The position numbers and the translations under genes were made by a program. The notes beneath the pieces are model-generated. The model was not told the origin of the DNA. It made no database searches and was given only the letters and a program-made list of their open reading frames with translations. A stretch of 64,000 nt of DNA, from the NCBI GenBank assembly GCA_963575745.1, contig CAUYUJ010008569.1, positions 1 to 64,000 on the forward strand, read 5' to 3'. Positions 6,594 to 58,063 of the stretch are shown here, in pieces; positions within the stretch are counted from its first letter, which is position 1, and every line of letters begins with the position of its first letter. This DNA comes from Prorocentrum cordatum. Its lineage: Eukaryota; Sar; Dinophyceae; Prorocentrales; Prorocentraceae.

Positions 6594-7560
6594 CTTCATA
6601 GGCCCCTACAACGGTTCATTTCCATTCATTTCCATTGAGGGAATTGCCTCGTTGGAAGACATTCGTTTGAAGGCCCTGAAGCATGCCAGAACATTGTTCT
6701 CGGCATTTCAACGTCACGGATCAACCTCGATGCTGCGTCTTGACGATCCGGAATCGTGCCAGAACACCATTTCGGGATATCGACGCCGCGAATCAACATA
6801 ATTGTTGCACCCCCATAATCCTGAATCCTTCCAAAACACCATTTCTGGTACGTTGATCATGGGAGTCCGTGAAACCCCTGCGGATATTTAAAACAAATGT
6901 GCGCGACACTAAGGCGAGAGCCACATGTTGAAAACGACCCGCCCTCAATCCGTGGAACTCTTGGCACATGGTGAAAACGAATGTGTGCGGCGCTAAGGCG
7001 AGAGCCACGTTTTGAAAACCACCCGCCCACAATCCGTGAACACATATTTAAAAACGAATGTGCGCGGCGCCACGGCGAGGGCAACATTTTGAAAACGACC
7101 CGCCCGCAATCCGTGAAACTCTTGCAATGGTTTAAAACAAATGTGCGCGGCGCTAAGGCGAGAGCCACATTTTGAAAACGACCCGCCCTCAAACCGTGGA
7201 GCTCTTGGCACATGGTGAAAACGAATGCGCGCGGCGCTAAGGCGAGAGCCACGTTTTGAAAACCACCCGCACTCAATCCGTGAAGCTCTTGCATGTTTGG
7301 GAAAAAACAAAATGTGCGGGCGGGGTGCTAAGGCGCGAGCCACATTTTGAAAACGGGCCGCCCTCAATCCGTGAAGCTCTTGCAATTGTTTAAGACGAAT
7401 GCGCGCGGCGCTAAGGCGAGAGCCACATTTTGAAAACCACCCGCCCTCCATCTGCGAAACTGCTGTCACTTTTTAAGCTTCAGAGTCATAAAGGGTGAGG
7501 AAGTGTCAGGCGAAATGCCCGGCCCGCCCTGAAAGCTGGCTTCGGGGTGCGACAAGGAGA
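6594..7560 (+). repeat. Dispersed repeat K, copy 1 (mate at 63295-64000 in inverse orientation)
   Basis: The left part (6594-6860) starts near GCCCCTACAACGGTTCATT and holds diverged internal repeats around 'CCAGAACA'. An 83-bp tandem array follows (6868-7460), then an end block with GAGGAAGTGTCAGGCGAAATG and CTTCGGGGTGCGACA (7490-7555), and then a GGA tract. All four blocks occur in the same order on the opposite strand at 62770-64000, so this is one repeat family. No protein-coding capacity seen. Confidence 0.82.
6868..7460 (+). repeat. 83-bp tandem array (about 7 copies) inside repeat K
   Basis: The unit contains GTGCGCGGCGCTAAGGCGAG, AGCCACATTTTGAAAACG and ACCCGCCCTCAATCCGTG. Neighbouring copies differ by substitutions and small indels. 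The array is also present, diverged, at about 63400-63720. Confidence 0.9.
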
Positions 7561-8720: not shown

Positions 8721-8954
8721 CCCGGGCCCCGTTGGGGCCTCTGGGAGGCCTCTGCTCCGGTCCGTCCCGATGTCGACGGCGCCGGCGGCGCCGACGAGGA
8801 TGGTTCCCCTTGTCCCCTGACCTTCCAGAGAGCTGTTTTTTAGCACGGCAGGCCTAAAAACCTAAAAAACGAAACGAAGCAGCCTAAAACCAAGACATAG
8901 AATGGCTCTGGGATAGGTTTTTAAGTCGCGTGCTATTTTTTAGCCCTCCTTTAA

Positions 8955-9125
8955 CGGGCGAAGAATGGTATAACATAAACCTTTTCGCTGTCGGGGGCGC
9001 CTGTCCCTGGGCGGCTGGAAAGTTTATACCCTTACGGTGGCACCGTAGGGGTATAAACTTTCCAGCCGCCCAGGGACAGGCGCCCCCGACAGCGGAAAAG
9101 TTTATGTTATACCGTTCTTCGCTCG
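8955..9125. mobile_element. 170-bp foldback hairpin (snap-back MITE candidate)
   Basis: Arms of about 85 bp (8955-9039 and 9041-9125) are near-perfect reverse complements, sharing GGTATAACATAAAC, TGTCGGGGGCGCCTGTCCCT and GGCGGCTGGAAAGTTTATAC. Only a few mismatches are visible, and the loop at the CGGTG/CACCG centre is almost absent. Both outer ends carry a CGNGCGAAGAAnGG sequence. There is no open frame. A recently formed palindrome this long is usually a foldback transposon or an inverted duplication. No clear TSD was found. Confidence 0.88.
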
Positions 9126-13166: not shown

Positions 13167-13749
13167 ATGGGGCCAAAGGCCCCGAGGTTTTGGAATATTG
13201 TCTCTGCCAATGTTACTGATCGCTCTGGGCTTGACATTTTCCTCTCCTCCCCCTCTGTGCTCCAGGCTCAGCTTGTCGGTGTGCAGGAAACGCGGGTGTT
13301 GGAGGTTGAAGCTTGTGAGCATAAACTCAGGCGACAAGGGTGGAGAGCCAAACTTTCGCCAGCCCGTCAGACGGCTGGAGGCGGCATATCTGCTGGCATT
13401 ATGCTTGCTGTGCCAAAGCATATCGGCCTGGCGCCGATTGAGAGCGTTCCGATCGACGTGCAGGTGGGGAGGATGATGGTTATGCATGTGGGAGGTCTCG
13501 TACCTGGGGGTTTCCTAGCGTGCACGCTCTATCTGCATCACTCTGTCGGACTTGCGCCAGCCAACTGGGATCTTCTCTGCAGGCTAGGCGCGCTGCTGAA
13601 AATGGCCAACATGCCTTTCCTCATCTTCGGGGACTTTAATCTCGAGCCCGACGTGCTCCAGCATTCAGGCTGGATTGATGCTATCGACGGTGCTGCCATA
13701 TACACGGATGCTGGAACATGTGCTCCAGCGCACAGGACCATCGATTTTT
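13167..13749 (+). pseudogene. LINE1 ORF2, segment 1: AP-type endonuclease (interrupted by E1)
   Basis: Starts MGPKAPRFWNIVSANV. Motifs of the exonuclease-endonuclease-phosphatase fold are legible: the N of SANV, the catalytic Glu in VGVQETRV, TLYLHHS, and GDFNLEPD with its catalytic Asp and Asn near 13630-13645. The frame stays open up to HRTIDF, which aligns with the TTFDY of LINE2, then enters E1 and stops at 13784. The enzyme would nick target DNA for target-primed reverse transcription. The remainder resumes at 14822 with FVVSQAF, matching the LINE2 FVCSGGL. Confidence 0.85.
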
Positions 13750-14004
13750 CCCGGAAAGGGCTTAAGCCCAGGGTTCTCTTTTAGTTTGTAAACAAGTCCC
13801 CCGGTGCCTGCTTGAAGGAGGCCGGCGAATTTTTTCCCTGATAAATAACGAGGTCGAAGGAGGCCGGCGAATTTTTCCCTGATAAATAACGAGCCCGAGA
13901 ATTAAAATTTGAGGATGTCTCGAGCGAAACGCTTGTTTTTGAGGCCGGCGAATTAAAAATTGAGGATGTCTCGAGCGAAACGCTTGTTTTTGAAATCCCG
14001 ACCT

Positions 14005-14575
14005 CACCACACCCCAGCACGACCAGACCCCAGCACGACCTCACCACAGCACGACCACACCCCAGCACGACCACGCCCCAGCACGACCACGCCCCAGCAC
14101 GACCACGCCCCAGCACGACCCTACCCCAGCAAGACCACACCCCAGCACGACCACACCCCAGCACGACCTCACCCCAGCACGACCACACCCCAGCACGACC
14201 ACGCCCCAGCACGACCACGCCCCAGCACGACCACCCCCCAGCACGACCACACCCCAGCACGACCACACCCCAGCACGACCACACCCCAGCACGACCACAC
14301 CCTAGCAAGACCACACCCCAGCACGACCACACCCCAGCACGACCTCACCACAGCACGACCACACCCCAGCACGACCACGCCCCAGCACGACCACGCCCCA
14401 GCACGACCACGCCCCAGCACAACCACCCCCCAGCACGACCACCCCCCCAGCACGACCACACCCCAGCACGACCACCCCCCAGCACGACCACACCCCCAGC
14501 ACGACCACACCCCAGCACGACCACCCCCCAGCACGACCACACACAAGCACGACCACTCCCCAGCACGACCACACC
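14005..14575 (+). repeat. 16-bp minisatellite (ACCCCAGCACGACCAC)n in E1
   Basis: About 35 units with substitutions at the ACA/CGC/TCA positions. Since 16 is not a multiple of three, each frame cycles through all three readings and none is stopped, producing pseudo-proteins with PSTTTPQHDHTPARPH-type repeats. Confidence 0.95.
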
Positions 14576-14599
14576 GCCTTGGTTGAGTGGTTGCCTGTC

Positions 14600-14745
14600 G
14601 TCGTGGAATGTTTCGTGGGGTGTCTCGTGGAATGTTTCGCGGGGTGTCTCCTGGAATGTTTCGTGAGGTGTCTCGCGGAATGTTTCGTGAGGTGTCTCGT
14701 GGGATGTTTCGTGAGGTGTCTCGTGGGATGTTTCGTGAGGTGTTG
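14600..14745 (+). repeat. 24-bp repeat TCTCGTGGAATGTTTCGTGA... in E1
   Basis: About six units alternating GGAATGTTTCG and GGGGTGTCTCG. The same array lies at 17425-17600 in E2. Confidence 0.92.
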
Positions 14746-14821
14746 CCCCGTTGGGTCTCGTGAAAACGTGCCCATGCTCCACATGTCTATATCCCTTTCC
14801 GGGTTCGTGGGTCCATCATGT

Positions 14822-14943
14822 TTCGTTGTCTCCCAGGCGTTTGCGGCGAACGCCTCGGTCTCACTGTTGGCAGAAGTGGAGATCACTCCGCATATTCCAG
14901 TTAAGTTGAAGTTACCCACCTTGGACACTGTACCCTCGGTGCA
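14822..14943 (+). pseudogene. LINE1 ORF2, segment 2: end of the endonuclease
   Basis: The frame reads FVVSQAFAANASVSLLAEVE, then ITPHIPVKLKLP and DTVPSVQ. It aligns without gaps to LINE2 FVCSGGLAKGL and LSPHRPVQLVFHP, including the conserved S/TPHxPV close to the endonuclease C-terminus, so it continues segment 1 across E1. Confidence 0.8.
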
Positions 14944-15085
14944 AGACATAAAAAGTAAAACAACAAAGCACTAAAAAAGAAAGGAAGAAGAAACTGCGAA
15001 GCACCGAGCACCGCAACGACAACAAAGGACAAAACAAAAAGAAAAACGCAGACAAACAACAAAACGACATAACACAACACATGGC
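14944..15085. other. A-rich insertion in LINE1 ORF2
   Basis: About 140 bp rich in A and C (AAAACAACAAAGCAC, AGAAAGGAAGAAG, CAAACAACAAAACGAC) separates DTVPSVQ from VPRRFPREL. These segments are adjacent in the LINE2 alignment. It contains stops in all frames. An A-rich stretch at about 44930-45025 shares GAAACTGCGAAGC. Origin unknown; a GT-AG removal (GTGCAAG...CCGCAG) would not restore the frame. Confidence 0.6.
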
Positions 15086-16040
15086 TATGGTTCCCCGCAG
15101 GTTCCCCAGAGAGTTGCCCATTGGTTGCCGTGGTGAGCCCAACTTAGCCAGGTGGGAGGTGGCGTCGGAGATGATGAGCAATGCTTGCATATCTAAGTCG
15201 TGGCAAGTTTTCGTCTCGGCTGCCGAGCTTGAATGGTTAGAGGTGTTTCAGATTCCCGCTGAGCTTTCGAAACCGTACCTTGGGCGTGGTGGTGATGTTC
15301 GTACTGGGTGGTGTCGACCGAGCCGGCCTGCCCCAGTTCCGTTTCCACGTCTGAGCCCTCAAGCTGTGTGGTGGAGAGCCTTGGCCCAGGTCCTCAAGAC
15401 CCTCACGAGGCCCATCAGCGTTGCCCAGACCAAGCAAGTGCGGTGCAGGATCCGACATCTTCAGAGCTCGCCAGATGTTCCAGATTCGAATCTCGCGGTC
15501 TGTTTCCTGGAGGCCCTTGATCGGTTTCACGTCTTTGATTACGTAGTCATGGACTATTTCGCCGCCGTCGCCAGCGACACTGCCGAGCGCCTGCACAAGC
15601 AGGCAACCCAGCTGAAGATAGTCAACTGGGACCGATGGGTTAAAACGCACTCGGTAGGTGGGGCTGCGGCGCTCTTCAAGTATGTGCAGCTGCCTGACCC
15701 TTGGCAGCCGTCCACCCTCGACTCCTTCACCCTCCGTCCTAACTCCAGCATGGGGGAAATGGATGAGCTTGAAAGAGAGCGGAGCAAGTGGTGGCAGGTG
15801 GGGGTCGCGCAGCCCCCCGTGCACTGGCCAGAGGATCTCGGAGAGCGCCCGCCTCCCCCCACGGTCCCAGAGCTCAAGAAAGTGTTGATGTCTTTCCCGA
15901 TAGGCACTGGTTGTGGATACGACCAGGTCCCGCCTAGGAGCTTTCTGCACTTGCCCGACGTTGCGCTCGAGCTTTTGTGCGGCCTCATCGGGAAGATTGA
16001 GGAGCAGGCGGTCTGGCCACCCCTCACGAACAAGATTGTT
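15081..16040 (+). pseudogene. LINE1 ORF2, segment 3: linker and N-terminal reverse transcriptase (interrupted by E2)
   Basis: Open from about 15081. Residues such as WDRWVKTHSVGGAAALF, GTGCGYDQVPPRSFLHLPD and EEQAVWPPLTNKIV align with the LINE2 region before its PTGGYRPIG motif. GYDQVPPRSF corresponds to the usual 'GxDGfhxK' start of the polymerase domain. The frame then enters E2 and stops shortly after. Confidence 0.8.
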
Positions 16041-16464
16041 CCCGGAAAGGGCGCCGGCCCAGGGTTCTCTTTTAGTAGGTAAACCTGTCCCCCGGTGCCA
16101 ACTTGAGGGAGGCCGGCGAATTTTTTCCCTGATAAATAACGAGGTCGAAGGAGGCCGGCGAATTAAAATTTGAGGATGTCTCGAGCGAAACGCTTGTTTT
16201 TGAAATCCCGATCGATAAATCACAGGGTGCGGGCCACTTTTTCGTGTGTTGAGGATGTCTCAAGCGAAACGCTTGCTCCGCAGAGTTTGCCGAGGATGTC
16301 TCGAGCGAAACGCTTGTTTTGCAGAGCCGACCGCGACGCGGAAAAGCGCCCCGCGCGAAGGAATTTCGATGATGTCTCGACTAATTCCTTTGTTTTTGTA
16401 CGATTTTCTTGGAATTTTTGGAGGATGATGTCTCGAGCGAATGCACGAACCCCACCGCTGTCAC

Positions 16465-17410
16465 GACCATACCCCAGCTCGACCACACCCCAGCACGACC
16501 AGACCCGAGCACGACCCCACCCCAGCACGACCCCACCCCAGCACGACCATACCCCAGCACGACCACACCCCAGCACGACCCGACCCCAGCACGACCCTAC
16601 CCCAGCAAGACCACACCCCAGCACGACCACACCCCAGCACGACCTCACCACAGCACGACCACGCCCCAGCACGACCACGCCCCAGCCCGACCACGCCCCA
16701 GCACGACCACGCCCCAGCACGACCACCCCTCCCAGCGCGACCACCCCCCAGCACGACCAACACCCCAGCACGAACCACACCCCAAAGCACGACCACTCCC
16801 CAGCACGACCACCCCCAGCACGACCACACCCAGCAACGACACTTTTCGAAATCGATAAATCACAGGGTGGCGGGACACCTCAGGACCACACCCCAGCACG
16901 ACCCCACACCCCAGCACGACCCCCACCCCAGCACGACCACGCCCCAGCACGACCACACCCCAAGCACGCGACACAACCCCAGCACGACCACACCCCAGCA
17001 CGACCCCACCCCATCACTACCCCACCCTAGCACGACACACCCCAGCAGCGAACCACCCCAGAACCAGCACGACCACACCCCAGCACGACCAGACCCCAGC
17101 ACGACCCCACCCCAGCACGACCCCACCCCAGCACGACCATACCCCAGCACGACCACACCCCAGCACGACCCGACCCCAGCACGACCCCACCCCAGCAAGA
17201 CCACACCCCAGCACGACCACACCCCAGCACGACCTCACACAGCACGACCACACCCCAGCACGACCACGCCCCAGCACGACCACGCCCCAGCACGACCACG
17301 CACGACCACCCCCCTAGCACGACCAGCACGACCACACCCCAGCACGACCACACCCCTGCACGACCACACCCCTACTCCAGCACGACCACACCCCAGCACG
17401 ACCACACCCA
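16465..17410 (+). repeat. 16-bp minisatellite (ACCCCAGCACGACCAC)n in E2
   Basis: Same unit as in E1, with more indels and a short non-repeat stretch containing ATCGATAAATCACAGGGTG (16850-16870) that also occurs at 16211-16229. Confidence 0.93.
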
Positions 17411-17424
17411 GTCGCACCCCCGTG

Positions 17425-17600
17425 GAATGTTTCGTGGGGTGTCTGGTTGAGTGGTTGCCTGTTCGTGGGGTGTCTCGTGGAATGTTTCACGGGGTGTCTC
17501 GTGGAATGTTTCGTGAGGTGTCTCGTGGGTTGTTTCGTGAGGTGTCTCCTGGGATGTTTCGCGGGGTGTCTCGTGGGATGTTTCGTGAGGTGTCGCCCAG
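17425..17600 (+). repeat. 24-bp repeat in E2
   Basis: About seven units of the GGAATGTTTCGTGAGGTGTC type, matching the array in E1. Confidence 0.92.
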
Positions 17601-17672
17601 TTGGATATCGTGAAAACGTGACCATGCTGCACATGTCTATATCCCTTTCCGGGTTCGTGGGTCCATCATGTT

Positions 17673-18493
17673 TTTATTCTCAAACGATTGGGAGGGGTCC
17701 GACCTTTGGGGCTGCTACACGTTCTCTGTCGGGTGCAGTCCAGGCTGAGAAGGCCTTTGATCAGGCAATGGCAAGTCAAGAACTATCGGAGTTTCTGGTG
17801 GGGTACTAAAGGGAAAAGCGCTGACATGTGTGTGTACATTCAGGCAGTGTGGGCGGAGTATTATCAGTCCAAGGGCCTGTCATCTGCTACGTTGCTGCTC
17901 GATTTGAAGAAAGCGTTTGAACTGGCCAAGCATCATCATCTTGTCCAGGCGGCCGCTCGCACTGGATTTCCGTTGTGGCAACTGCGTTTGCTTGTGCAAG
18001 TCTATCGGTCGCCCCGCCTGCTTGATCTCCAAGGGACGGTCAGTAATCACATCACGGCGGAAACTACGATTATCCCTGGGTGTGGTTTTGCTACTGTTTT
18101 GCTGCAGCTGGTTTTGCTGGGCCCCCTGGATGTTGTTCAGAAAGAGTTTCGGGCCGTCTGTCTTTCCGTGGTTGTCGACGATTTTGCGTTGCAGAGATCG
18201 GGGGAACACGGCCGAGTAGTTGCTGATGTAGCTGGTGCTGGAGTGAAGCTTCAGTGCGAGCTGCAGCGTGTGGATCTACGGCTCGCTCTTGACAAGACGC
18301 GAGTTCTTGCTAGTGACTCTGATTTACGTGACCAGCTGTCCAGGAGGCTGGTATCGCTCAGGGCCCAGGGCGTGAACCATGAGCGCAACTTGGGGGTTGA
18401 CTACAGTTCTGGTCGGTTTCTCAGGAGGGCCACCAGGACGGGCAGAATCAAGGTCGCCAAACCCAAGCTCAAGAGAATGAACATCTCCAGGGA
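17673..18493 (+). pseudogene. LINE1 ORF2, segment 4: reverse transcriptase core
   Basis: Reads FILKRLGGVRPLGLL, aligning with the LINE2 LLPKPTGGYRPIGV. Motif A is ATLLLDLKKAFE (about 17890-17920), motif B PGCGFATVLLQ (about 18075-18105), and the catalytic DD lies in SVVVDDF (about 18165-18182). The usual Tyr/Phe of the (Y/F)xDD box is Val here. RLALDKTRVLASD is the thumb-proximal region. A one-base frameshift close to 18490 separates it from segment 5. Confidence 0.83.
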
Positions 18494-18496
18494 GGT

Positions 18497-20359
18497 ATGG
18501 CCAGGCGGAAAACCATGGCCATCATGGCCAGGGCGGCCCTGGAGACTTCGGTTGCTTTTGGGACCTCCGTTCAGGGTACTGCCTCTAAGGAGCTGGACGT
18601 GTTGCGATCCCAGGCCGCTGCGGCGCTCGACGCCAAGACCAGCGGCAAGAGCCGCACTCTCGCTCTCGCGCTCGCGCCGCAGGCCAACTACGACCCGATT
18701 TGGAGGGCTACTCTGGAGCCTATCAAAGCTTTCAGCTCTGTTCTTTGGGCGTCGCGCGTGCCATGTCATGTACTTGAGCATGGCCTTGAGGCTGCTAGAT
18801 TGGCGTTGTCTGGGAAGGACCAAATGTGGCCGCAAGTTCGGGGCCCCTTGGGAGCCCTCTTCGCTACGCTCGCCAGAGTCGGGATCGTCGTCGTTGAGCC
18901 CCTGGTCTGGAAGTTGCCTGATGGTCTGGAGCTGAAACTCAAGGACATTTGCCCCAGGGTCCTACTGCACTGCTGTGCGCATGCGGTGCGCCACTGGGTC
19001 AACCTGCAGATTTCGGAGCACCTCCAGATGCCCGAGTTCCGCACTGGGTTCTGGGATGGGCCTCTGAAGTACCTCCTGAGCGCCAAGGGGAACCTCACTT
19101 GGCAGCAGCGCGGCTACCTCAGGAGTGCTATCATTGGAGCTCAGTGGCCCCAAGATCGGCAATTTCAACAAGGATGGATTGACTCCCCGAGTTGCCTTGC
19201 ATGCCATGAGGCCCCTGGGTCCCTCGTGCATCGGCACGCTGTTTGCAAGAGCATGCTTGAGGCAATAGGAGAGCCACTCCCTGATGCAATCAGACTCATG
19301 CTCCCGCATGCGGACCAGAATGACCTGGTGCGCCTGTTGCTGGAGCGCGTGCTCGTCCCTCTCCCCAAGGCCCCTCAGGCAGTGCTGCTGACGCCGTCGG
19401 AGCCCTGTGTGGAATGGCACGGGGATGCGCAACAGCTCACAGGGGATCTTTATCTTGATGGCTCTCTGTTTACTGATTATCCACATCGCGGGACCGCTGC
19501 ATGGGCAGTTGTTGCGCTGGCCGCCGACAGCGACACGGCTGCCTGCACCATCACAGGTCTCCTGCCCTACCCGCCGCAGGACATAGACGGTGCCGAGCTG
19601 TATGCCCTGTTCGCAGTGCTCAGATTTGCGGTGCCACCTGTTGTCGTGCACACGGATTCCGATTTCGTTTGGAAAGGTTACAATATCCGCGGACCTGCTG
19701 ACACCACGTCGGCGTCGGCGGCTTGGGCCTGTCTTTGGAAGCTCGTATGGCGCAAAGTCGATGACTGGGGGGGTACCCCCCCTGAGGTAAAGAAAGTTAA
19801 AGCCCACGTGACAGAGTTTCAGGTTGCGGAGGGGAGGTATAAGCTTCGAGACAAACTTGGAAATGATGCCGCCGACGGTGCTGCGAACAGTCGTGCTCGT
19901 GTCCTGCGGCCCGATCCCCAGTTTCAGAAGCTTACGTTGATGCAGAAGAGAATGGTCAGTCTTACGGGGAAATGGGCCGCCAGGGCGGGTGAGGCCATTG
20001 CATCTGTAGACTGTCTGCACCGCCAGCGCTCTGCACGTTCAGCCCCCTCCCTAATCATTGTCAAGCCAGAGCCGCCCACCTTAGAGCAAAGGATCCAGCA
20101 GGCTCAGGTTTCTCTGAAGGCCGCTGGGTCCAAGCATCATCGTGTGGCGTCGCTGTTCGTGGGCGAAACCCAGGTGTTTTGCTGCACTCACTGCGCTGCA
20201 TGCACCACCCAGCGCGTGGTGTCTCTTGCGAGTGAGTGCCAGCCCCGTCATCTTTCCAAGGATCGTCGCCTTATCCTAGAACGATTGAGACGGGGCGAGT
20301 ACTGTTTAGCCAAGAGGGTTCTGAGGTATGCAGGTTATCGCCTGCTCCCAGAGCCCTAA
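18497..20359 (+). pseudogene. LINE1 ORF2, segment 5: C-terminal region with zinc motif, RNase H and Cys-rich tail
   Basis: 620 codons open from MARRKTMAIM, but this is the out-of-frame continuation of segment 4 (VWPGGK in the upstream frame). A CxxC-H-C zinc motif, CLACHEAPGSLVHRHAVC, is near 19195-19248. RNase H residues run in order: Asp in LYLDGSLF (about 19455), Glu in DGAELYALFAV (about 19590), Asp in VVVHTDSDFV (about 19650) and Asp in LGNDAADGAA (about 19865). The tail has CCTHCAACTTQ (about 20180). RNase H would remove template RNA. No stop interrupts this part, so decay is recent. The stop codon is at 20357-20359. Confidence 0.87.
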
Positions 20360-20572
20360 TCCTTGTCAATGGCTGCAACGGGGGGCGCGGTGCGAGTGGG
20401 GACTGCCCGGCGTTGCGCCGTTAGTGACCCTCGCACCGTTGCTCCTCGGCCCCGCGCACGGCGCGGTGTGTGTCCGATGGGCGCGGCTAATGGCGGTTGC
20501 AAGGTGCGCCCCTAGCCGCGTTCGAGGTCCTGCTGAGGCACCATAGACTCTGTGGCGCCCCAGGCTGTGCCC
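20360..20572 (+). other. LINE1 3' UTR
   Basis: 213 bp of GC-rich sequence containing inverted pairs such as GGTGCGAGTGGGG / CCTCGCACCG and GGCCCCGCGCACGGCGC, which could fold. It ends at the TSD without a poly(A) tract. Confidence 0.7.
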
Positions 20573-20591
20573 AGGAGGAGGAGGAAGAGCT
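20573..20591. repeat. LINE1 target-site duplication, right copy (19 bp)
   Basis: Identical to 11976-11994 (AGGAGGAGGAGGAAGAGCT). Confidence 0.9.
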
Positions 20592-21179
20592 GCAGGGGCG
20601 CCCCGCGCGCGCCGCTCCCGCCCAGGCCCTGCGGCCGCGCGTGCCGCTGCCCTCTCGCCTCGAGGCTACCGCCGCGCGCTGCCGCCGCCCGTCGTCGTCG
20701 CCGCCGGTCGTGCCGTCGCCGCCGTCGTCGTCGCCGTCGACGTCAGCGCCGTCGACGTCGTCGAAGGCGCCGTCTCGGAGGGAAAGATGGGGGGCCACAC
20801 GCGAACCCTACCCCTACCCCCCACGAGTTCTGAGGGGAGGGTGGGGTTCACTCCGTTCGGGAGCTCCCGAGGTGCCTTATAAAAGCGGCAAGGGCGCAGG
20901 GCTGGCGGAGGTCCGCCCGGATCTCTCGGGTCGGCGCTGCGTCCCCGCCCCCGGCGCGCGGTGCGCGGCAGGGGCGGTGGAGTCGCCACCAGGAGTCCAG
21001 CGCCGATCCCAGAAATCTGCGTGGACCTCCGAAAGTTGATGCCCATGCCGTTGTTTCGTCGGCTATCGTCGTCGTGGTCGACGTCGACGTGATTCTCGTC
21101 GGCGTCGTCGTCGTCGTCATCGAGGTCGTCGTCATTCCCCCCTCCCACCCTGCTCCTCTGTGTTTCGGGCGGGAGTTCT
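20592..21179. other. GC-rich intergenic DNA with GTCGTC tracts
   Basis: Holds degenerate (GTC)n at about 20690-20765 and 21060-21140. The segment around TGCGTGGACCTCCGAAAG (21018) matches GCGCGGACCTCCGAAAGGTC at about 31186. No gene recognised. Confidence 0.5.
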
Positions 21180-21345
21180 TTCGCGATAAATCGTTCCAGA
21201 GCGTTCCGGAATGCACCCAGAGCGTTCCGGAGTTCTCTGGAACGGCCGCGGCGGCCGCTACATCCTCCAGAACCGCTTGATCTCAGAGATCCCCGATGTA
21301 TCCAGGTCCGATTTTGTCCCCGTCCTAGCTTCGTCTCAGTGTTCT
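21180..21345 (+). repeat. Dispersed repeat shared with the 3' half of the SERF-gene intron
   Basis: TCTGGAACGGCCGCGGCGGC, AACCGCTTGATCTCAGAGAT and TTTTGTCCCCGTCCTAGCTTC run colinear with 30690-30812 (CCTGGAACGGCCGCGGCGCC, AACCGCCGGATCTCAGAGAT, CTTGTCCCCGTCTGGACTTC). This copy ends CTTCGTCTCAG, the intron copy CTTCGTCTTCGCAG. Confidence 0.8.
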
Positions 21346-21741
21346 CCTTGTCGTCCAACCATTGTTCCCCCTTGTCCACATCATTCATAAACCTCCGCCT
21401 CCTCGCGCTTCTCCTCTATCTTATCCTGCTCCTCAGCATGCTGCTCCTGTTCCTGCAGCTAGTCCCCCCCCCCTTATCCTGACAGCATCGCTCCTCATCC
21501 TCACCCTCCTCTCAACTCTCACCCCTCACCCTTTCACAGGAAGAGAGTAATGGAGAAAGAAGGCGAGAGGATGAACTGGAAAATTATGAGGAACAGCAAG
21601 AGGACTAGGAGGCTGCTTGCCTGACGGGGACCGGGGCTTGCTACACTACTTGGCTCCTCGATCCTCTTTGAGCTTTTAGGATGTCGCCCGCTGCAGATGA
21701 GATAGGAGGAGTAGAGGGAGAAGGATAAGGAGCCTGTTTTT
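21346..21741. other. Intergenic, no gene recognised
   Basis: CT-rich stretch (21380-21535) followed by AG-rich sequence up to the E3 left junction in a TTTTT tract. Confidence 0.4.
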
Positions 21742-21865
21742 CCCGGAAAGGACGCGGGCCCAGGGTTCTCTTTTAGTAGGTTAACCCCCCGGACCCCTGC
21801 GACTTGGGCCGGCGAAATTATTCTGCGATAAATTACGTGCGGGAGTAGGGCCGGCGCAATTATTT

Positions 21866-22372
21866 TTGAGGATGTCTCGAGCGAAACGCTTGTTTTTCAG
21901 AATTTGTTGAGGATGTCTCGAGCGAGACGCTGGTTTTGCAGAGTTGGGGATGTCTCGAGCGAAACGCTTGGTTTCAGAATTTGTTGAGGATGTCTCGAGC
22001 GACACGCTGGTTTTGCAGAGCCGACCGCGACACGGAAAAGCGCCCCTCGCGCAGGAATTCCAAGGATGTCTCGCGCGTGCCGCGTCCCGCGCGCGGGTAT
22101 TTGGATTTCTTGTGGTTTTGACAGGATGTCTCGAGCGAAACGCTTGTTTTCATAATTTGTTGAGGATGTCTCGAGCGAAACGCTGGTTTTGCAAAATTGG
22201 AGGATGTCTCGAGCGGTGGCCTCGTGGGGGGCCAGAATTCAAAGGATGTCTCAGGCGAAATGCTTGTTTTTCACGTCCCGCTCGCAGGAATTCCGAGGAT
22301 GTCTCGCGCGTGCAGCGTCCCGCGCGTAGGAATTCAGATGATTTTGACAGGATGTCTCGAGCGAAACGCTTG
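21866..22372 (+). repeat. Interspersed GTCTCGAGCGAAACGCTTG repeats of E3
   Basis: Repeat of about 25-29 bp, preceded by GAGGAT and followed by a T-run, separated by 15-60 bp of unrelated or degenerate sequence. The core AGCGAAACGCT can form a small hairpin. Confidence 0.88.
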
Positions 22373-22374
22373 TC

Positions 22375-23140
22375 CCCAGCACGTTCCGTAGCGCGTCCCC
22401 TTGGCAGGTCCCGCGATGCGTCCCCATGGCACGTCCCTTGGCACGTCGCTTGGCGCGTCCCTTGAGACGTTCTGCGTCGCGTCCTCCTGGCATGTTCCCC
22501 TGTCCATTAGCTCTGGGCAGCTACTATGTGTTCAGGCAGCTCGAGCTTAAGATCCAGATCAGTTCGGTCAGGACTCGGATGCAAAGGAGGACTCGATCCA
22601 CGAGGCTATAGAGCACAGTCGCGCCATGGCACATCGCAATTCAGCACGGCGCAGCACAGCACTGATTTCGGCACGGTACATCAAGGTCGATACACTCAGC
22701 ATTGCAACTTGGCACGTTCCTTGGCACGTTCCGTGGGGCGTCCTTTGGCGAGTCCCCCTGGCACGTCGCGTGGCGCGTCCCCTGGCACATCCCGTGGCAC
22801 ATCCATTGGCACGTTCCGTAGCGCGTCCCCTTGGCACGTCCCGCGGTGCGACCCCATGGCACGTCCCCTGGCACGTCGCCTGGCGCATCCCTTGGGACGT
22901 TTCGCGGCGCGTCCTCCTGGCATGTTCCCCTGTCCATTAGCTCTGGGGCAGCTACTATGTGTTCAGGCAGCTCGAGCTTAAGATCCAGATCAGTTCGGTC
23001 AGGACTCGGATGCAAAGGAGGACTCGATCCACGAGGCTATAGAGCACAGTCGCGCCATGGCACATCGCAATTCAGCACGGCGCAGCACAGCACAGCCCTC
23101 GGCAGGGTACATCAAGATCGATACTTCAGATATTGCATTT
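22375..23140 (+). repeat. Two 430-bp direct repeats with 12-bp minisatellite in E3
   Basis: Each has (GGCACGTCCCTT)-type units, then CTATGTGTTCAGGCAGCTCG, GGACTCGATCCACGAGGCTA and GGCACATCGCAATTCAGCAC. The same pair exists in E4 (26008-26760). Confidence 0.88.
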
Positions 23141-23228
23141 GCCCGTCACCCAATCAGGTGTCTTTGAAAACGCTGCCATGTGTTACAGTTCTACATTCCT
23201 TTCCGGGTTCGTGGGTCGATCATGTTTA

Positions 23229-23401
23229 GATTCCGGCAAGTTTACTTGCATGGACGGGGGGGGGGCCTGAACCTGAAGCAAGCCGCAAACGACCTGCACG
23301 TGCGGAGACCACGCACGTGGAAAGGCACCTGCACGCTAGCATGCGTTCGAAGAGGGGCGAGGGGGGGGAGCGAACGCCGTGCAAGTAAACTTGCCTGAAT
23401 C
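23229..23401. mobile_element. TIR element C (about 170 bp)
   Basis: Left GATTCCGGCAAGTTTACTTG (23229 on) and right CAAGTAAACTTGCCTGAATC form inverted repeats of about 25 bp with two or three mismatches. The interior is GC-rich with a second inverted pair, GCACGTGCGG/CCACGCACGTGG. Only one copy is in the window. E3 abuts it at the T-run. Confidence 0.75.
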
Positions 23402-23486
23402 CCGTTGTTAATTTCAAAAAACTGTTGTTTATTGGCTTGCTTGTCTGAATTACTGTTGTTGCTGACTATTTTTGTTGTTGCCTTTT

Positions 23487-23487
<1 letters not shown>

Positions 23488-23527
<40 letters not shown>

Positions 23528-23530
23528 GTA
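23488..23530. repeat. (CA)n(TA)n dinucleotide run
   Basis: About 10 CA/AC units followed by about 12 AT units. Confidence 0.95.
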
Positions 23531-23589
23531 TAACAGAAAAACTCGAGGAGGAGGAGGAGGTTGGAGAGAGCGCCCCTCGAGGGGCGCGA

Positions 23590-23735
23590 GGGGCCCGCGC
23601 CGCGAGCGGCCCCACGCTGTGCGCCGCCCGCGCGGCGAGGTGGTCCTCCACGAGATCACCGGGCGGCCCAGGGGCCACGCCTACCTGGACTTCGGCACGC
23701 GGGAGGACGCGGCGGTTGCAGGAACAAAAATGTTG
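23590..23735 (+). pseudogene. RRM-like fragment (gene debris or a lone exon)
   Basis: The frame reads GEVVLHEITGRPRGHAYLDF, then GTREDAAVAGTKM. RGHAYLDF fits the RNP1 motif of an RNA-recognition motif (K/R-G-F/Y-A/G-F/Y-V/I/L-x-F/Y), with His at the aromatic position, and ITGRPRG resembles the loop before RNP1. RNP2 is not seen, nor a convincing start or splice site, so it covers only about half a domain. It could be an exon of a gene with unrecognised introns, or a retroposed fragment. Confidence 0.45.
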
Positions 23736-24059
23736 CATCAGCAGCGCTCCGACGACACATAGCGGGCTTCCCCCCCCCGCCCCTTCCATCCCTCCGGCCC
23801 GAATGTTGGAAGGCATGGCGATCGAGATCTTGAGTTCCGATGTTTTCCGGCCGCCCACCTCCGGGACCTATTGCTCAATATCAAGGCCGGGGTGTGCGGG
23901 GGGGGTATTCGAAGTGGTCCCCCAGTTCTTGATGCACAGTTGTTTGTTTCAGCGGGCCCCCAGCCACGCGCAGAGGGGGGGGCAGGGGGAGGGGGGAAGG
24001 CGTCTCAGAGAAGGAGGCTGCTTCCTAGAAGGCGCGGGCCTGATCTGCAGGCGTAGGGT

Positions 24060-24345
24060 CGGCGCCTTCTGATAAGCAGCCTCTCTAAGAAGGCTCCCCC
24101 CCTCCCCCTACTCTTAAGTAAATCGGGTCTGTCCCTCTACAGGAGGAGCATTCAGAAGTAGTCAACAAATAATTTTGGGAACGATTGCTTGACTATGTTT
24201 GGGCATGTTTTAAGTATTTGCAGATGTTCTTAAACTTTTCACCCAAAATCCGCCTGCAGGGGGACATGCCCGACCTAACGTAAGGCCAGCGCCTTCTGAG
24301 AAGCAGCCTCTCTCCGAGAAGGCTCCCCCCCTCCCCCTGCCCCCT
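24060..24345. repeat. Direct duplication flanking MITE-A copy 1
   Basis: GCGCCTTCTGATAAGCAGCC at about 24063 and GCGCCTTCTGAGAAGCAGCC at about 24290, each followed by TCTCT, AGAAGGCTCCCCCC and TCCCCCT. Confidence 0.75.
24122..24275. mobile_element. MITE-A copy 1
   Basis: Left ATCGGGTCTGTCCCTCTACA and right CTGCAGGGGGACATGCCCGA are inverted repeats. The interior has GTAGTCAACAAATAATTTTG and CACCCAAAATCCGCCTG. The flanks CTTAAGTAA and CTAACGTAA may be a diverged 9-bp TSD. Other copies at 34625-34773 and 35153-35292. Confidence 0.8.
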
Positions 24346-25113
24346 TTGCGCGCGCCGCCAACGGCCGCTCCGCCGCTGTCGCCGCTGGGTGGAGGAGGAG
24401 GGGAAGGAGACCCGTTCGGTAGCAAGTCATGGGAGCCTGGGTGCCCTCGCAAATCCGTGTTCAGGGTGCATTAGCGTCGACAAGTGTCGTGCAATCGATG
24501 TGGGCACACCGATTTCGCGTCCATCAGCGTCGCGTAGCGTCGAGAAGTGTCGACGTAGCGTCGATTAGCGTCGGTTAGCGTCGACCAGCGTCGACGAGCG
24601 TCGATTCGCAAGAGCCAACAAGATGATATGGGAGGCCCCCCTGCGTTGCCGCAGAAGGGTCGGCTGCACGCGCGGTCAGGACGGTCTGCCTGGCGCGTCG
24701 CGCCGCAGACTCAGGCCTACCGCGCCTCGGCGCGACACTCTGACTGCTGCCCAGCCCCAGAGCGTCAACGTCCAGAGCATCCCTCGGGCGGGTGGTGCTG
24801 GAGGGTGACCTGCACGGGGGGCTGGAGAACAGGACCCCCAAAAGGAGCCCCTGAGGGCCCCTTTTGGAGCCAACAGGGGTCCGAAAGGGGCCCGAGAAGG
24901 GCCCCTCTGGCGCCCCTTCGCTTCACCCCCCCATGCAGGGCATCCCCCACTACGGTGGGGGCGTCGGTGAGGGAATGCGCCCAGGAGGCCGCAGACCCTG
25001 GAGGGCTCCTCGTCAGCTGAGGGCGGCGGTGACATCCCTGGCCACGCCTCGATCGGAGCTCTACCTGCTGCCAGCCCCTGGAATCCCTATCCGTTGGTTT
25101 CTCGGCATCTTTT
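24276..25113. other. Intergenic with a TAGCGTCGA-type short repeat (24470-24605)
   Basis: The repeat is a degenerate 9-10-bp unit (AGCGTCGATTAGCGTCGGTT). The rest is GC-rich, with a (GGGCCCCTTTT)-like patch near 24850-24910. No gene recognised. Confidence 0.55.
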
Positions 25114-25237
25114 CCGGAAAGGGCGTAGGCCCAGGGTTCTCTTTTAGAGGTTTACCCCCGGATCCGACGGCTGAAGGGCCGGCGAATTTCTTCTGCGATA
25201 AACAACGAGGTCGCGTAGGGCCGGCGAATTAAAATTT

Positions 25238-26005
25238 GAGGATGTCTCGAGCGAAACGCTTGTGTTTCAGAATGTGTTGAGGATGTCTCGAGCGAAACGC
25301 TTGTTTTGTGTTATAGATTGTCCTCTCCTGGGGGCCAGAATTTAGAGGATCTCTCAAGTGAAATGCTTGGTTTCACATGCCCAGGTCTTGGAGCGAGACG
25401 CTTGGTTTCATGCCTCCAGGTTGCCCAGGCAGAGGTCAAGCGCCAGGATTTGTTGAGGATGTCTCGAGCGAGACGCTTGGTTTGACGCATCCTCGTCGCC
25501 CAGGCGGATGTCTAGAATGAGGAGGTGTTGAGAAAGTCTCGATCGAGATGCTTGTTTGCACGTGTCCAGGTTGCCCAGGCGGATGCCTAGCATGAGGATA
25601 AGTTGAGAATGTCTCGAGAGATACGCTTGTTTTCACGTGTCCAGGTCGCCCAGGCGGATGTCTAACATGAAGATGTGTTGAGGATGTCTCGAGCGAGACG
25701 TTTGCTTCTACGTGTACAGGTCGCCAAGGCGGATGTCTAGAATGAGGAGGTGTTGAAAACGTCTCGAGCGAAACGCTTGTTTTCACGTGCCCAGGTCACC
25801 CAGGCGGACATCTCACATGAAGATGTGTTGAGGATGTCTCGAGCGAAGTACTTGTTTTCACGTGTCCAGTTCGCCCAGGCGGATGTCTAGCATGAGAATG
25901 TGTTGAGGATGTGTTGAGCGAAACGTTTGTTTTCACGTGTCCGGGTCGCTCAGGCGGATGTCTAGAATGAGGTTGTTGACAGGATGTCTCGAGCGAAACG
26001 CTTGT
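25238..26005 (+). repeat. 80-bp composite array of E4
   Basis: Each unit combines the GTCTCGAGCGAAACGCTTG motif with TTTCACGTGTCCAGGTCGCC, CAGGCGGATGTCTAG and AATGAGGAGGTGTTGA. Confidence 0.88.
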
Positions 26006-26007
26006 TC

Positions 26008-26760
26008 CCAGCACGTTCCGTAGCGCGTCCCCTTGGCACGTCCCGCGGTGCGTCCCCATGGCACGTCCCCTGGCATGTCGCCTGGCACGTCCCTTGAGAC
26101 GTTCCGCGGCGCGTCCTCCTGGCATGTCCCCTTATCAGTTAGCTCTGCGGCAGATACTATGTGTTCAGGCAGCTCGAGCTTAAGATCCAGATCAGTTCGG
26201 TCAGGACTCGGATGCAAAGGAGGACTCGATCCACGAGGCTATAGAGCACAATCGCGCCATGGCACATCGCAATTCAGCACGGCGCAGCACAGCACTGATT
26301 TCGGCACGGTACATCAAGATCGATACACTCAGCATTGCAATTTGGCACGTTCCTTGGCACGTTCCGTGGGGCGTCCCTTGGCGAGTCCCCCTGGCACGTC
26401 GCGTGGCGCGTCCCCTGGCACATTCCGTGGCACATCCATTGGCACGTTCCGTAGCGCGTCCTCTTGGCACGTCCTACGGTGCGAACCCATGGCACGTCCC
26501 CTGGCACGTCGCCTGGCGCGTACCTTGGGACGTTTCGCGGCGCGTCCTCTTGGCATGTCCCCCTGTCAATTAGCTCTGGGGCAGCTACTATGTGTTCAGG
26601 CAACTCGAGCTTAAGATCCAGATCAGTTCAGTCAGGACTCGGATGCAAAGGAAGACTCGATCCACGACGCTATAGAGCACAACCGCGGCATGGCACATCG
26701 CAATTCAGCACGGTGCAGCACAGCACAGCCCTCGGCACGGTACATCAAGATCGATACAAT
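26008..26760 (+). repeat. Two direct repeats with 12-bp minisatellite in E4
   Basis: Same organisation as 22375-23140, with few differences. Confidence 0.88.
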
Positions 26761-26857
26761 CAGCATTGCAGTTGCCCGTCACCCAATCAGGTGTCTTTGA
26801 ACACGTTGCCATGCGTTACATTTCTATATTCCTTCCCGGGTTCGTGGGTCGACCATG

Positions 26858-46084: not shown

Positions 46085-47780
46085 GATATCGGTTCTACCA
46101 CCCTTCCCCCCCGGACTTGAGGATCCCTTTTTTTCGTATTGCCAGTTGCATATGTTTTTGCCCCATCGCCCATCCGAAATATGAATCTACACCATCCCAG
46201 GGTGGCCGGTCTCGCCCCCCCCCCGCCATCGTCAGCAATAAATACTATGCGCGCACAGTCGCTTACCAAAAAAACATACATGATCAAGGAACCCTCTGCG
46301 AGAAATGAGACTAAGTGCGCGCGCGCGTCCTCGCGCGCGCATGCCGAAGTCCCCAAACAAATTATGGTTGCGGAAAGATTCCAGAAACGAGTGCCCCTAC
46401 CATTTCTTAAAGAAAAAATGTTCCGCAACACGGATTTGTTTCTATATTGCAAAATGTTCGCGCGTTCTTGCGAATTCTTAGTGAATGTAATTATATACAC
46501 AGAAATGGTTATCAATCTTTTCAGGAAAAAATCACTACCAAACGGATTTCGCGCGCGCGCATGTCGGAATCGTTCGAACGCCCCTGCGCGCGTGCCGTCG
46601 CGAGAATTTCTTGCAAACCAAAAAATAAAGATAGCAGTTGTTTTTTTGATGCACGCGCGGGCGTCGTCGCGTGCGCATGCCGAAATTATCCAACAACCTT
46701 CGATTGCGGAAGGACTTCAAAATCGAGTGTTCAAAACAATATACAAAAACACAGGGTTTTGCAACACGAATGTTCAACAAAAGCGTGCGCGCGCGCTCTT
46801 GCGTTGTCGGCGGCTCGTCGTCGTGGCCGTCCTCCCTCCTTCGTCGTCGTCGTCGCCGTCGTTGTCCTCTGTCTTCCCTCGTCGTCGTCGTCGTCCTCTT
46901 TGGCGTCGTCGTCGTTTCCGTCGTCGTTGTCGCCGTGGTCGTCCTTCCTCCTCCCTCGTCGTCGTCGTCGTCCGTCGTCGGCGTCTCGTCGTCGTCCCTC
47001 CTATTTCGTCGCCGTCTTCATCGTCGTCGTCGTTGTTCCTCCTCCCTCCTCGTTGTCGTCGTCGGCGCCGCCGTCCTCCCTCCTTCGTCGTTCGCGCCGT
47101 CGCCGTCCTCCCTCCTCTCTCGTCGTTGTCGTCGTTGTCGCCGTCGTCCTCCTCCCTCCTCCCTCGTCGTCGTCCTCGTCTTCGTTGGCGACGTCGTCGT
47201 CTTCGTCGTCGTCGTCGGCGTCGTCGTCGTTGTCGTCATCGTCGCAGTCGGCGTCGTCGGCGTCGTCGTCGGCGTCGTCATCGTCGTCGTCGGCGTCGGC
47301 GTCGGCGGTGTCGTCGTCGTTGTCGTCGTCGTCGTCGAACTCGTCGTCGTCGTCGTCGTCGTCGTCGTAGTCGTCGTCGGTGTCGTCGTCGTTGTCGCTG
47401 TCGTGGTCGGCGTCAGTGTCGTTGCCAAGTTCCCTTTGGTAACTACCGTCACGGTGTTAAGAGGTTTTGCGACCGAGTTGCGGGTGGGAGGGTGGGACGT
47501 TTGCACGAGCAGTGGAGAGATGTCAGCTTCAAGACAGTCAAAGTGGATTGCACCACATGTATTCCACCACATCTTGCACAGCATAGACTGCACCGCATAG
47601 ATTGAACAAACGAATGTGCACAACCTGAGGTACTCAACATCTATTGCACACCATAGACTGCACCACATATGTCGCACCATATCGATCGCACCACCGAGAC
47701 TGCACCACATAGATTGCATCACGCAGACTGCACCACAGATGCTGCACCACACAGACTGCACAACGCAGACTGCACCACGC
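46085..47780 (+). repeat. Dispersed repeat R, copy 6, carrying a GTC expansion
   Basis: Head 46090-46260, body to 46800, GTC array 46800-47410, the closing AACTACCGTCACGG block, GTTGCGGGTGGGAGGGTGGG at 47477, and a long GCACCACATAGATT-type tail reaching the spliced-leader relic of the transporter gene. Confidence 0.82.
46800..47410. repeat. 610-bp imperfect (GTC)n array inside R copy 6
   Basis: Starts and ends at the same element positions as the array of copy 4 (CGCGCTCTTGCG on the left, GTTGCCAAGT on the right). Confidence 0.95.
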
Positions 47781-47783
47781 ATG
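47540..47783 (+). repeat. TGCACCACATAGAT minisatellite
   Basis: 15-17-bp degenerate units (GACTGCACCACAT, GATTGCATCACGCA). Shorter arrays of the same motif lie at 39785-39870, 44150-44235 and 62240-62345. Confidence 0.85.
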
Positions 47784-47805
47784 TCCGCAGCCAGTTTGGC
47801 TCGAG
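47784..47805 (+). other. Spliced-leader relic before the MFS gene
   Basis: TCCGCAGCCAGTTTGGCTCG plus AG matches the 22-nt dinoflagellate leader at 19 positions; the three differences are single substitutions. It lies exactly where the GCACCACA array stops and 49 nt before the ATG, which is where a leader copied from mRNA should be. Confidence 0.8.
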
Positions 47806-47854
47806 CGCCGAGAGCCCCCACCTCGGGGCTGCCGGCATCCGGCCGCGGGCCACG

Positions 47855-49396
47855 ATGGCCGTTGGGGACGACGATCCCTCCGAGGCGATGCTCTCGTCCG
47901 GGGCGGTCGAGGACGACCTAGATGAGCCAACGACGACAACGAGGTTGAGGACAAAGTCGTCGGGTCGCCTCATTCCCAGGAGGAGGGTCACCATCGAGGA
48001 CGCCATCGAAGAGGTGGGCATCGGGAGGACGCAGTATGTGCTGCTGTTCATTTGCGGCTTGACTTTCTGCTCGGACGCGGCGGAGGTGACGTTCCTCTCA
48101 TACGTGACGGAGGTCCTGCGCTGCGACTGGGGCATCACCGAGGAACAGGAAAGCATGCTCACCTCGGTCGTGTTTGTTGGGATGCTCGTCGGCTCTCCCG
48201 TGATGGGATTCCTCGCCGATAAGATCGGCAGGCGGATCGCGTTCCTCTTCTCCTCGGTTATCATCTGCGTGTTCGGCTTCCTCACGGCCTTGTGCCAGAA
48301 CCTCCCCCAGCTGATCGTCGTGCGCGCGGTGGTCGGCTTCGGCGTCTCGGGCCTGCCCGTGGGCTTCGACATCCTGGCGGAGGCGCTACCCATGGCGGGA
48401 CGCGGCAGGTTCCTGCTGCTGATCGAATACTTCTGGACCCTGGGCAGCATATACGTCAACCTGTGCGCATGGCTCGTGCTGGACTCGCTGGGGTGGCGTA
48501 CGTTCACATGCCTGGCCGCCGTCCCGACGCTGATCGCCTCGCTCGCCGGGTACTGCCTCCTCCCCGAGTCCCCGCGCTGGCTGCACGAGGTGCACCGGGA
48601 GGAGGAAGCGCTGGCCGTCGTGAACCAGTGGATTGCGGCCAACGGCGGGGAGATGAAGATCGCCTCCCTCGCGGTCGAGGCGGGCCACGAGGAGCTCGGC
48701 TGCTCCGCGCTCTGCCAGCGGCGGAAGCTGCGCTTCGTGTCCGTGGTCATGGGCCTGATCTGGTTCTCCTTCGGAATGTGCTACTACGGCGTCGTCATGC
48801 TGCTGCCTCGCGTGTTCGAGAGCTCGACCAGCGGCGGCGAGGAAGCCAGTCGGGGGTCGTGCGACGGGGGCGCCAGCTTCGACTTCAAGGACATTGGCGT
48901 GTCGGTGGCCGCCGAGGTGGTGGGCGTGGCGGTGGCGGTCCGCCTCATAGATTCTCCTGGGCGCGCCCCGACGCAGGCCATCTTCTACGGCCTGTGCGCG
49001 CTGTCCGCGTTTGCCCTCAGCTTCAAGTCGCTCCCGCCGTTGCTCCTGCTGTGCGCCGGCTCCTTGGCCCGGATGTCGGCAATGGCGGCGTCCAGCGCCA
49101 CTTGGGTGCACACTCCAGAGCTCTTCCCCACTAGGGTGCGGACCACAGCCCACGGCTTCATGAACATTTGCTCCAGGATCGGGGCCTTCATGGCGCCGTG
49201 GCTCATCATGGGCGACTTCGTTGAGTTCAGGGAGGACGTCCTGACGGGCATGCTGATCACCGGGGCGGTCGGTGCTCTGGCGGGTGTCCTGTCGATGATG
49301 CTGCCCGAGACCGCGGGCATTGAGATGCAAGATGCCGCGTACGACTCTACCGAGTCCAGCGACGGCGATGACAACAGCTTCGGCTCGTCGGAGTGA
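47855..49396 (+). CDS. MFS transporter, SV2/SVOP-like sugar-porter family (intronless retrogene)
   Basis: 513 residues in one open frame. The MFS signature between helices 2 and 3 is GFLADKIGRR (118-127). LPESPRW (236-242) and LPETAG (483-488) are typical of the sugar/organic-ion porter branch, and PELFPTRVRTTAHGF (421-435) resembles the SV2/SVOP signature. Hydrophobic stretches fit about 12 helices, with a soluble N-terminus of about 60 residues (MAVGDDDPSE...), a central loop (about 243-290) and an acidic Ser-rich tail. It should be a membrane protein moving a small solute; the substrate cannot be told. The Met at 47855 is chosen because the frame upstream runs through minisatellite and the spliced-leader relic, which mark UTR. 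No introns and a leader relic 49 nt upstream point to a gene reinserted from mRNA. No frameshifts; GC-rich third positions suggest a functional gene. Confidence 0.9.
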   Translation: MAVGDDDPSEAMLSSGAVEDDLDEPTTTTRLRTKSSGRLIPRRRVTIEDAIEEVGIGRTQYVLLFICGLTFCSDAAEVTFLSYVTEVLRCDWGITEEQESMLTSVVFVGMLVGSPVMGFLADKIGRRIAFLFSSVIICVFGFLTALCQNLPQLIVVRAVVGFGVSGLPVGFDILAEALPMAGRGRFLLLIEYFWTLGSIYVNLCAWLVLDSLGWRTFTCLAAVPTLIASLAGYCLLPESPRWLHEVHREEEALAVVNQWIAANGGEMKIASLAVEAGHEELGCSALCQRRKLRFVSVVMGLIWFSFGMCYYGVVMLLPRVFESSTSGGEEASRGSCDGGASFDFKDIGVSVAAEVVGVAVAVRLIDSPGRAPTQAIFYGLCALSAFALSFKSLPPLLLLCAGSLARMSAMAASSATWVHTPELFPTRVRTTAHGFMNICSRIGAFMAPWLIMGDFVEFREDVLTGMLITGAVGALAGVLSMMLPETAGIEMQDAAYDSTESSDGDDNSFGSSE

Positions 49397-58055: not shown

Positions 58056-58063
58056 CCTGGCGC

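Follow-up and report, generated by a model that had tools for sequence, protein, structure and literature searches.

The four elements E1 to E4, found in a 64,000-nucleotide stretch of the dinoflagellate Prorocentrum cordatum genome (contig CAUYUJ010008569.1, positions 1 to 64,000; the window hereafter), are discrete copies of one dispersed family. Constant ends, T on the same strand at both ends, two T added at the insertion site, inverted repeats placed asymmetrically and a 5′ stem that is conserved together make up an anatomy like that of Helitron2 and HINE elements, and E1 to E4 are quite probably non-autonomous rolling-circle transposons that work in the same way. This is a judgement of kind, not a proof of membership. 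The initial annotation of the window knew of no named family with this combination. As to kind this was wrong: for Helitron2, Helentron and HINE elements, inverted repeats that are asymmetric or subterminal have been described, along with insertion at TT or in T-rich DNA and tandem repeats in the interior. The kind is already known; for the family itself no description was found. Among the literature matches listed, no title deals with Helitron2/HINE-like elements in dinoflagellates; one passage mentions helitrons in Symbiodinium.

All four elements lie on the + strand. E1 (CCCGG...CATG) occupies 13750-14820, E2 16041-17670, E3 21742-23224 and E4 25113-26857, as delimited by matches to the end blocks and, for E1 and E2, also by comparison with empty sites. 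The left block CCCAGGGTTCTCTTTTAG has four matches in the window, all exact and all on the + strand (0.09 expected, with up to three mismatches allowed), and the right block CCTTTCCGGGTTCGTGGGTC also has four, three exact and one with one mismatch (0.00 expected), as the initial annotation had proposed. By itself, the 10-bp inverted repeat CCCGGAAAGG is not above chance in the window (11 found vs. 10.15 expected with one mismatch allowed); the family signal resides in the longer end blocks, not in the short inverted repeat. The left repeat is terminal (E1, 13750-13759; E2, 16041-16050; E3, 21742-21751; E4, 25113-25122), whereas the right repeat, CCTTTCCGGG, is subterminal and ends 17 nt inside the element (E1, 14794-14803; E2, 17644-17653; E3, 23198-23207; E4, 26831-26840; all +). 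In corrected letters, E3 reads CCCGGAAAGGAC. In E4, the first base of the left repeat is T, and this repeat, TCCGGAAAGG, begins at 25113 and not at the previously given 25114 (the end at 26857 stands); the right repeat of E4 differs at one position, CCTTCCCGGG, and the tail is GACCATG in place of the NATCATG ascribed to all copies. All four start after a T-run, which before E2 is only GTT.

Between the ends, the contents vary. E1 and E2 are 85% alike over 831 bp and E3 and E4 94% alike over 883 bp, while the ends are common to all four; thus, the ends are conserved and the cargo differs. E1 and E2 contain 16-bp and 24-bp minisatellites (in E1, 35.5 copies of the 16-bp unit at 14006-14575 and 6.1 copies of the 24-bp unit at 14596-14743; in E2, 57.8 copies of the 16-bp unit at 16462-17409), E3 contains 41- and 12-bp repeats, and E4 contains 75- and 12-bp repeats, the former in 8.2 copies at 25391-26006, all on the + strand. 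As the initial annotation had stated, no transposase appears to be encoded: no Pfam transposase family was found in 37 scanned open reading frames (ORFs) of the window, a set that covers the larger ORFs in both E1 and E2 and, of the 17 ORFs of at least 100 aa overlapping 21742-26857, 10, short or broken frames being left out. Rfam gave no match in the window at gathering score, viral contigs gave none to the element ends or the internal motif, and bacterial and archaeal genomes, searched with the internal motif only, gave none to that motif. Repeat regions at 6900-7560 and 63310-63500 (-) carry a motif close to the internal motif GGATGTCTCGAGCGAAACGCTTG, perhaps belonging to another family with related cargo.

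E1 and E2 both interrupt a single + strand long interspersed nuclear element (LINE), whose parts lie at 13167-13749 (endonuclease part, up to the E1 site), 14821-14942 (from E1 to an A-rich block), 15080-16040 (up to the E2 site) and 17671-20356 (reverse transcriptase and RNase H part). Other copies of this LINE provide the empty sites. With a query made from the joined flanks minus E1 and minus two T, 40 of 40 scored LINE matches (59 candidates) lack E1; they run end to end at 94-100% identity, and 39 of them have the same length. Likewise, 40 of 40 scored matches (83 candidates) lack E2: 34 cover the whole query at equal length, five reach base 415 at equal length, and one has a one-base difference. 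One LINE copy, L071, compared with the last LINE part as far as 19387, was read letter by letter and has six T at the E1 site and five T at the E2 site. The filled sites in the window have 5 + 3 = 8 T around E1 and 2 + 5 = 7 T around E2; against L071, filled minus empty is the element plus two T in both cases. The empty sites foreseen by the initial annotation therefore exist, not with the single TT that it expected but with six and five T, two fewer than the filled sites.

Clean empty sites are also found for two copies nested in other members of the family: L018, ungapped over 138 nt at 100% identity, and L024, at 94% identity with a gap-free junction. These come from joining the flanks of all 25 paired elements and seeking uninterrupted matches to them in limited sequence, which gave 12 matches spanning the junction and 13 cases without one. 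The other ten spanning matches are uninformative and are not counted as empty sites: L019 lacks one nucleotide of alignment within the T-run, next to a changed base, L026 and L016 cannot be aligned without gaps, and in L013 (twice), L014, L017, L021 and L028 (twice) the match is to a neighbouring copy of the element itself or to a T-run.

The ends were further compared in 20 regions taken from the best E1-like matches, together with the window, by a fuzzy search in which T was not required. This sample, 34 left and 32 right ends, favours E1-like copies, and with nested or tandem sites among its members it is not fully independent. At least two T stand beside 33 of the 34 left ends (the remaining one has one T, next to a changed first base) and beside all 32 right ends; A-flanked ends, on the element strand, are not seen in this sample. 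T-runs on the left are mostly of five or six (17/34), and those on the right most often of exactly two (15/32). In 32 of 32 right ends the offset of the right repeat is constant at 17 nt from the end, bearing out what had been noted for the window. These data bear directly on the main rival, a cut-and-paste transposon with terminal inverted repeats, similar to a miniature inverted-repeat transposable element, that duplicates a TT target. Inverted repeats are indeed present, and wherever a clean empty site is available (E1, E2, L018 and L024), the gain of exactly two T is what a TT duplication gives; but the inverted repeats are not at both extreme ends, the right one being 17 nt inside, and a symmetric cut at TT/AA should give both T and A on the element strand, where T and never A is found. 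To our knowledge, there is no cut-and-paste superfamily with TT duplications, and we regard this explanation as unlikely.

Helitron2 anatomy includes a hairpin at the 5′ end, and such a stem is conserved here. The hairpin GGGC-TTAA-GCCC (E1 letters) lies at 13758-13769 in E1, 16049-16060 in E2, 21750-21761 in E3 (one mismatch) and 25121-25132 in E4, all on the + strand, and overlaps the end of the left repeat, whose final GG forms part of the GGGC/GCCC stem. Of 31 usable left ends, 29 have a perfect stem, yet 10 different sequences occur in the 4-nt loop: the four loop positions vary by 1.0-1.5 bits, and the 12 positions before and 16 after by 0-0.2 bits. Predicted folding yields the stem for E1 and E4; for E2 and E3, the best fold is without it. 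Canonical Helitron1 features (5′-TC, 3′-CTRR, a 3′ hairpin and an A|T target) are not found, the ends being CCCGG...CATG at T-runs.

In the genome, the right end followed by TT occurs 6,431 times (3,142 and 3,289 per strand) and its reversed control not at all. The count used a 29-base right end with 28 fixed bases and one free, over a 4.13-Gb assembly of 21,875 contigs, and copies without TT or with a changed end fall outside it. Together with the constant ends in the copies read and the empty sites, this dispersal supports the non-autonomous mobile element that the initial annotation had proposed. Among the first 100 right-end places in contig order, a sample of the E family alone, consecutive copies on one contig share their strand in 67 of 73 cases; for neighbours no more than 100 kb apart the figure is 64 of 66, or 54 of 56 when contig C114 is set aside. 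At a linkage of 50 kb, C114 included, 21 of 22 clusters lie wholly on one strand, against 6.2 expected for independent strands; E1 to E4 conform to this pattern. Many of the spacings look irregular. At C114:991545-999402, eleven right ends lie within 8 kb, many of them spaced by about 458 bp, and may form a tandem array that arose from the element. Such an array, the large minisatellite interiors and the same-strand clusters, which could stem from duplicated segments, are all in keeping with satellite DNA or segmental duplication without any discrete element. The same constant ends sit in differing flanks in the copies read, and the copies tested have precise empty sites; this explanation, which the initial annotation had tied to blocks occurring mostly alone and to a lack of empty sites, is not borne out for the copies read and is extremely unlikely.

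Several observations weigh against the rolling-circle reading. The two added T fit a TT target duplication as well as T borne by the element. In a comparison of E1 to E4, the 5′ 51 nt fold better than shuffles in E4 only. No stable 3′ hairpin was detected: at the four right ends the predicted stems are weak, 3-5 bp long, and folding does not surpass that of shuffled sequences (z +0.6 to +1.6). The right repeat, 17 nt from the end or 19 with TT included, is just under the 20-30 quoted for Helitron2. Furthermore, in six of the 20 regions two copies follow each other head to tail, separated by nothing but 2-11 T, and these tandems were considered as proof of rolling-circle multimers. This was rejected, as neighbours are mostly no closer to each other than to other copies: right ends are comparable in four of the six T-only junctions (in L009 roughly, where a nested copy intervenes), and in three of the four some other copy is a closer match than the neighbour, while the L017 pair is identical but so are others. 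Since tandem neighbours are mostly not closest relatives, most tandems are read as insertions into T next to an older copy. Finally, no Rep-helicase carrying the ends of the family was found: a full E end is absent within 1.5 kb of 30 Rep loci, from four 10-kb stretches and from the four stretches of 16.5 kb joined for families A and B, so that four families were covered at 10-16.5 kb, and the 1.5-kb and 10-kb scans gave only matches with six errors and bare 10-bp repeats without the rest of the end.

Helitron Rep domains themselves abound in the genome. At least 151 Helitron_like_N matches were obtained, with 150 of 1,615 first-look candidates scored and all those listed over the cut-off, while the control gave matches in none of 14 genomes. 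Two families, A and B, were read to both ends, with aligned lengths of 12,350 and 12,771 bp and 99.8% identity between copies; in the one aligned over 12,771 bp, Rep and the PIF1 helicase share a single frame of 1,797 aa. The two families were considered as autonomous partners and rejected; their own ends differ from those of E and lie in (TA)n. The two Helitron families (L060/L070, L064/L069, L059/L067 and L063/L068), about 12.4 and 12.8 kb long and located in (TA)n, have a palindrome at the 3′ end as judged by eye. Because the 3′ hairpin was not found and a small search revealed no partner with E ends, formal membership in Helitron2 or HINE is left aside.

If E1 to E4 are indeed rolling-circle elements, a Rep-helicase supplied in trans would nick at the T-flanked left end, displace one strand and stop at the right end, and the displaced strand would be joined to target DNA at a T-run exposed as a single strand. 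In that case, the element itself would bring the extra TT, as described for Helentrons. Pairing of the left and right repeats may open the 5′ hairpin and thereby signal the end point, as Bao and Jurka proposed for Helitron2 (PMC3627910). The minisatellites would be passengers that expand inside the copies.

The initial annotation had also considered a large introner-like element. Introners are mobile elements removed by splicing and placed in sense in genes, with non-canonical boundaries reported for Amoebophrya and, by pattern, for P. cordatum. E1 and E2 do lie in sense in an ORF whose frame is restored on their removal, although any clean insertion gives this, and neighbouring copies listed are mostly on one strand, as expected inside genes. 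The conserved left block, at 13774-13797 and at the same place in E2 to E4, is splice-acceptor-like, with a pyrimidine tract and AG followed by GTAAAC-like letters. The published P. cordatum introner search pattern, which asks for 8-20-nt inverted repeats and 3-5-nt direct repeats no more than 30 bases from the intron ends, would accept some E ends (TTT on both sides of E1 and E3). As far as they are described, introners of Amoebophrya and P. cordatum (PMC7789003, PMC10666404) resemble E in having inverted repeats near both ends, short direct repeats and no transposase, and differ in being defined as introns, whereas E1 and E2 are LINE insertions with empty copies. Their absence from all the scored LINE copies marks E1 and E2 as later insertions and not LINE introns. 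No GT/GC/GA-AG boundary is seen by inspection, even with the ambiguity in T, and no gene is recognised around E3 and E4, where the scanned ORFs have no match over the cut-off. That the elements are introners is very unlikely.

Taken together, the published Helitron2, HINE and Fusarium descriptions account for what is seen of ends, target and cargo, including the uncertain ownership of the flanking T. The same-strand clusters are not covered by them. Duplication of whole segments could be their cause. A more far-reaching idea, which we consider rather doubtful, is that clusters are strand-coherent because insertion occurs only into T-runs that are single-stranded on one strand, so that thousands of oriented copies would record the local direction of replication or transcription; the subset in sense in genes might act as introners, linking rolling-circle elements to intron gain.

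The surroundings of the elements contain other features. In the host LINE, PF00078 reverse transcriptase scores over the cut-off, PF03372 endonuclease just below and PF00075 RNase H below. Its protein has three homologs, all from P. cordatum, two of them with 94-95% identity across 7-18% of the query and the third with 36%; the former, P0001 and P0002, span no junction, and the latter, P0003, supports a two-residue spacing at both. An A-rich block of about 137 bp at 14943-15080, inside this LINE and with a stop codon, is absent from L071 and represents a further insertion. A second, diverged LINE at 56508-58909 (-) has 29-32% amino-acid identity to the first, a PF03372 endonuclease domain and reverse-transcriptase similarity. 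An open frame at 47657-49393 (+) has a major facilitator/sugar transporter domain (PF07690, E 8e-36), and a long, nearly perfect inverted repeat is seen by eye at 8951-9115.

These elements place Helitron2-like, minisatellite-carrying transposons in a bloom-forming dinoflagellate at several thousand copies, with clean junctions and empty sites on offer for study. Should such ends lie in genes, these elements may account for part of the counted P. cordatum introners; and if the strand-coherent clusters hold up under controls and in a full count, the insertions would allow the direction of replication or transcription to be read.

Among known systems, Helitron2 has asymmetric terminal inverted repeats of 8-15 bp, the left one 0-2 bp and the right one 20-30 bp from the end, a 5′ hairpin including part of the left repeat, and T-rich tetranucleotide targets, which in Chlamydomonas are TTTT, TTTG, TTTC, TCTT and TGTT, according to the text available (Bao and Jurka, 2013; PMC3627910). 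E shares the asymmetric inverted repeats with a terminal left copy, the 5′ hairpin built partly from the left repeat and the T-rich target, and differs in the right repeat at 17-19 nt and in that neither a stable 3′ hairpin nor a Rep-helicase with E ends was found. HINE/DINE-1 elements, which are non-autonomous Helentrons, have at least two T on each side, whose ownership is described as unclear (Mob DNA 2014; PMC4067079). In that account, they are likewise non-coding, with a T-rich target, inverted repeats offset at the 3′ side and micro- or tandem repeats in some copies; their 3′ palindrome was not found in E, the right repeat of the mite HINE is 38-60 bp from the end, and the host of E is a dinoflagellate. 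Fusarium FoHeli elements, as far as described in PMC5148889, have asymmetric inverted repeats as well, and the FoHeli3-5 group has a 5′ hairpin without a 3′ hairpin, showing that the 3′ hairpin is not universal; they have other termini and known autonomous copies, and no insertion preference is established for the FoHeli3-5 group. Cg_HINE of the Pacific oyster, compared by description and not by sequence, has a 3′ palindrome, unlike E (PMC7492417). The same description gives it conserved flanks around satellite-like arrays, a TT target and empty sites, and some of its groups share flanks but not arrays, just as E1 and E2 share their ends but not their cargo with E3 and E4.

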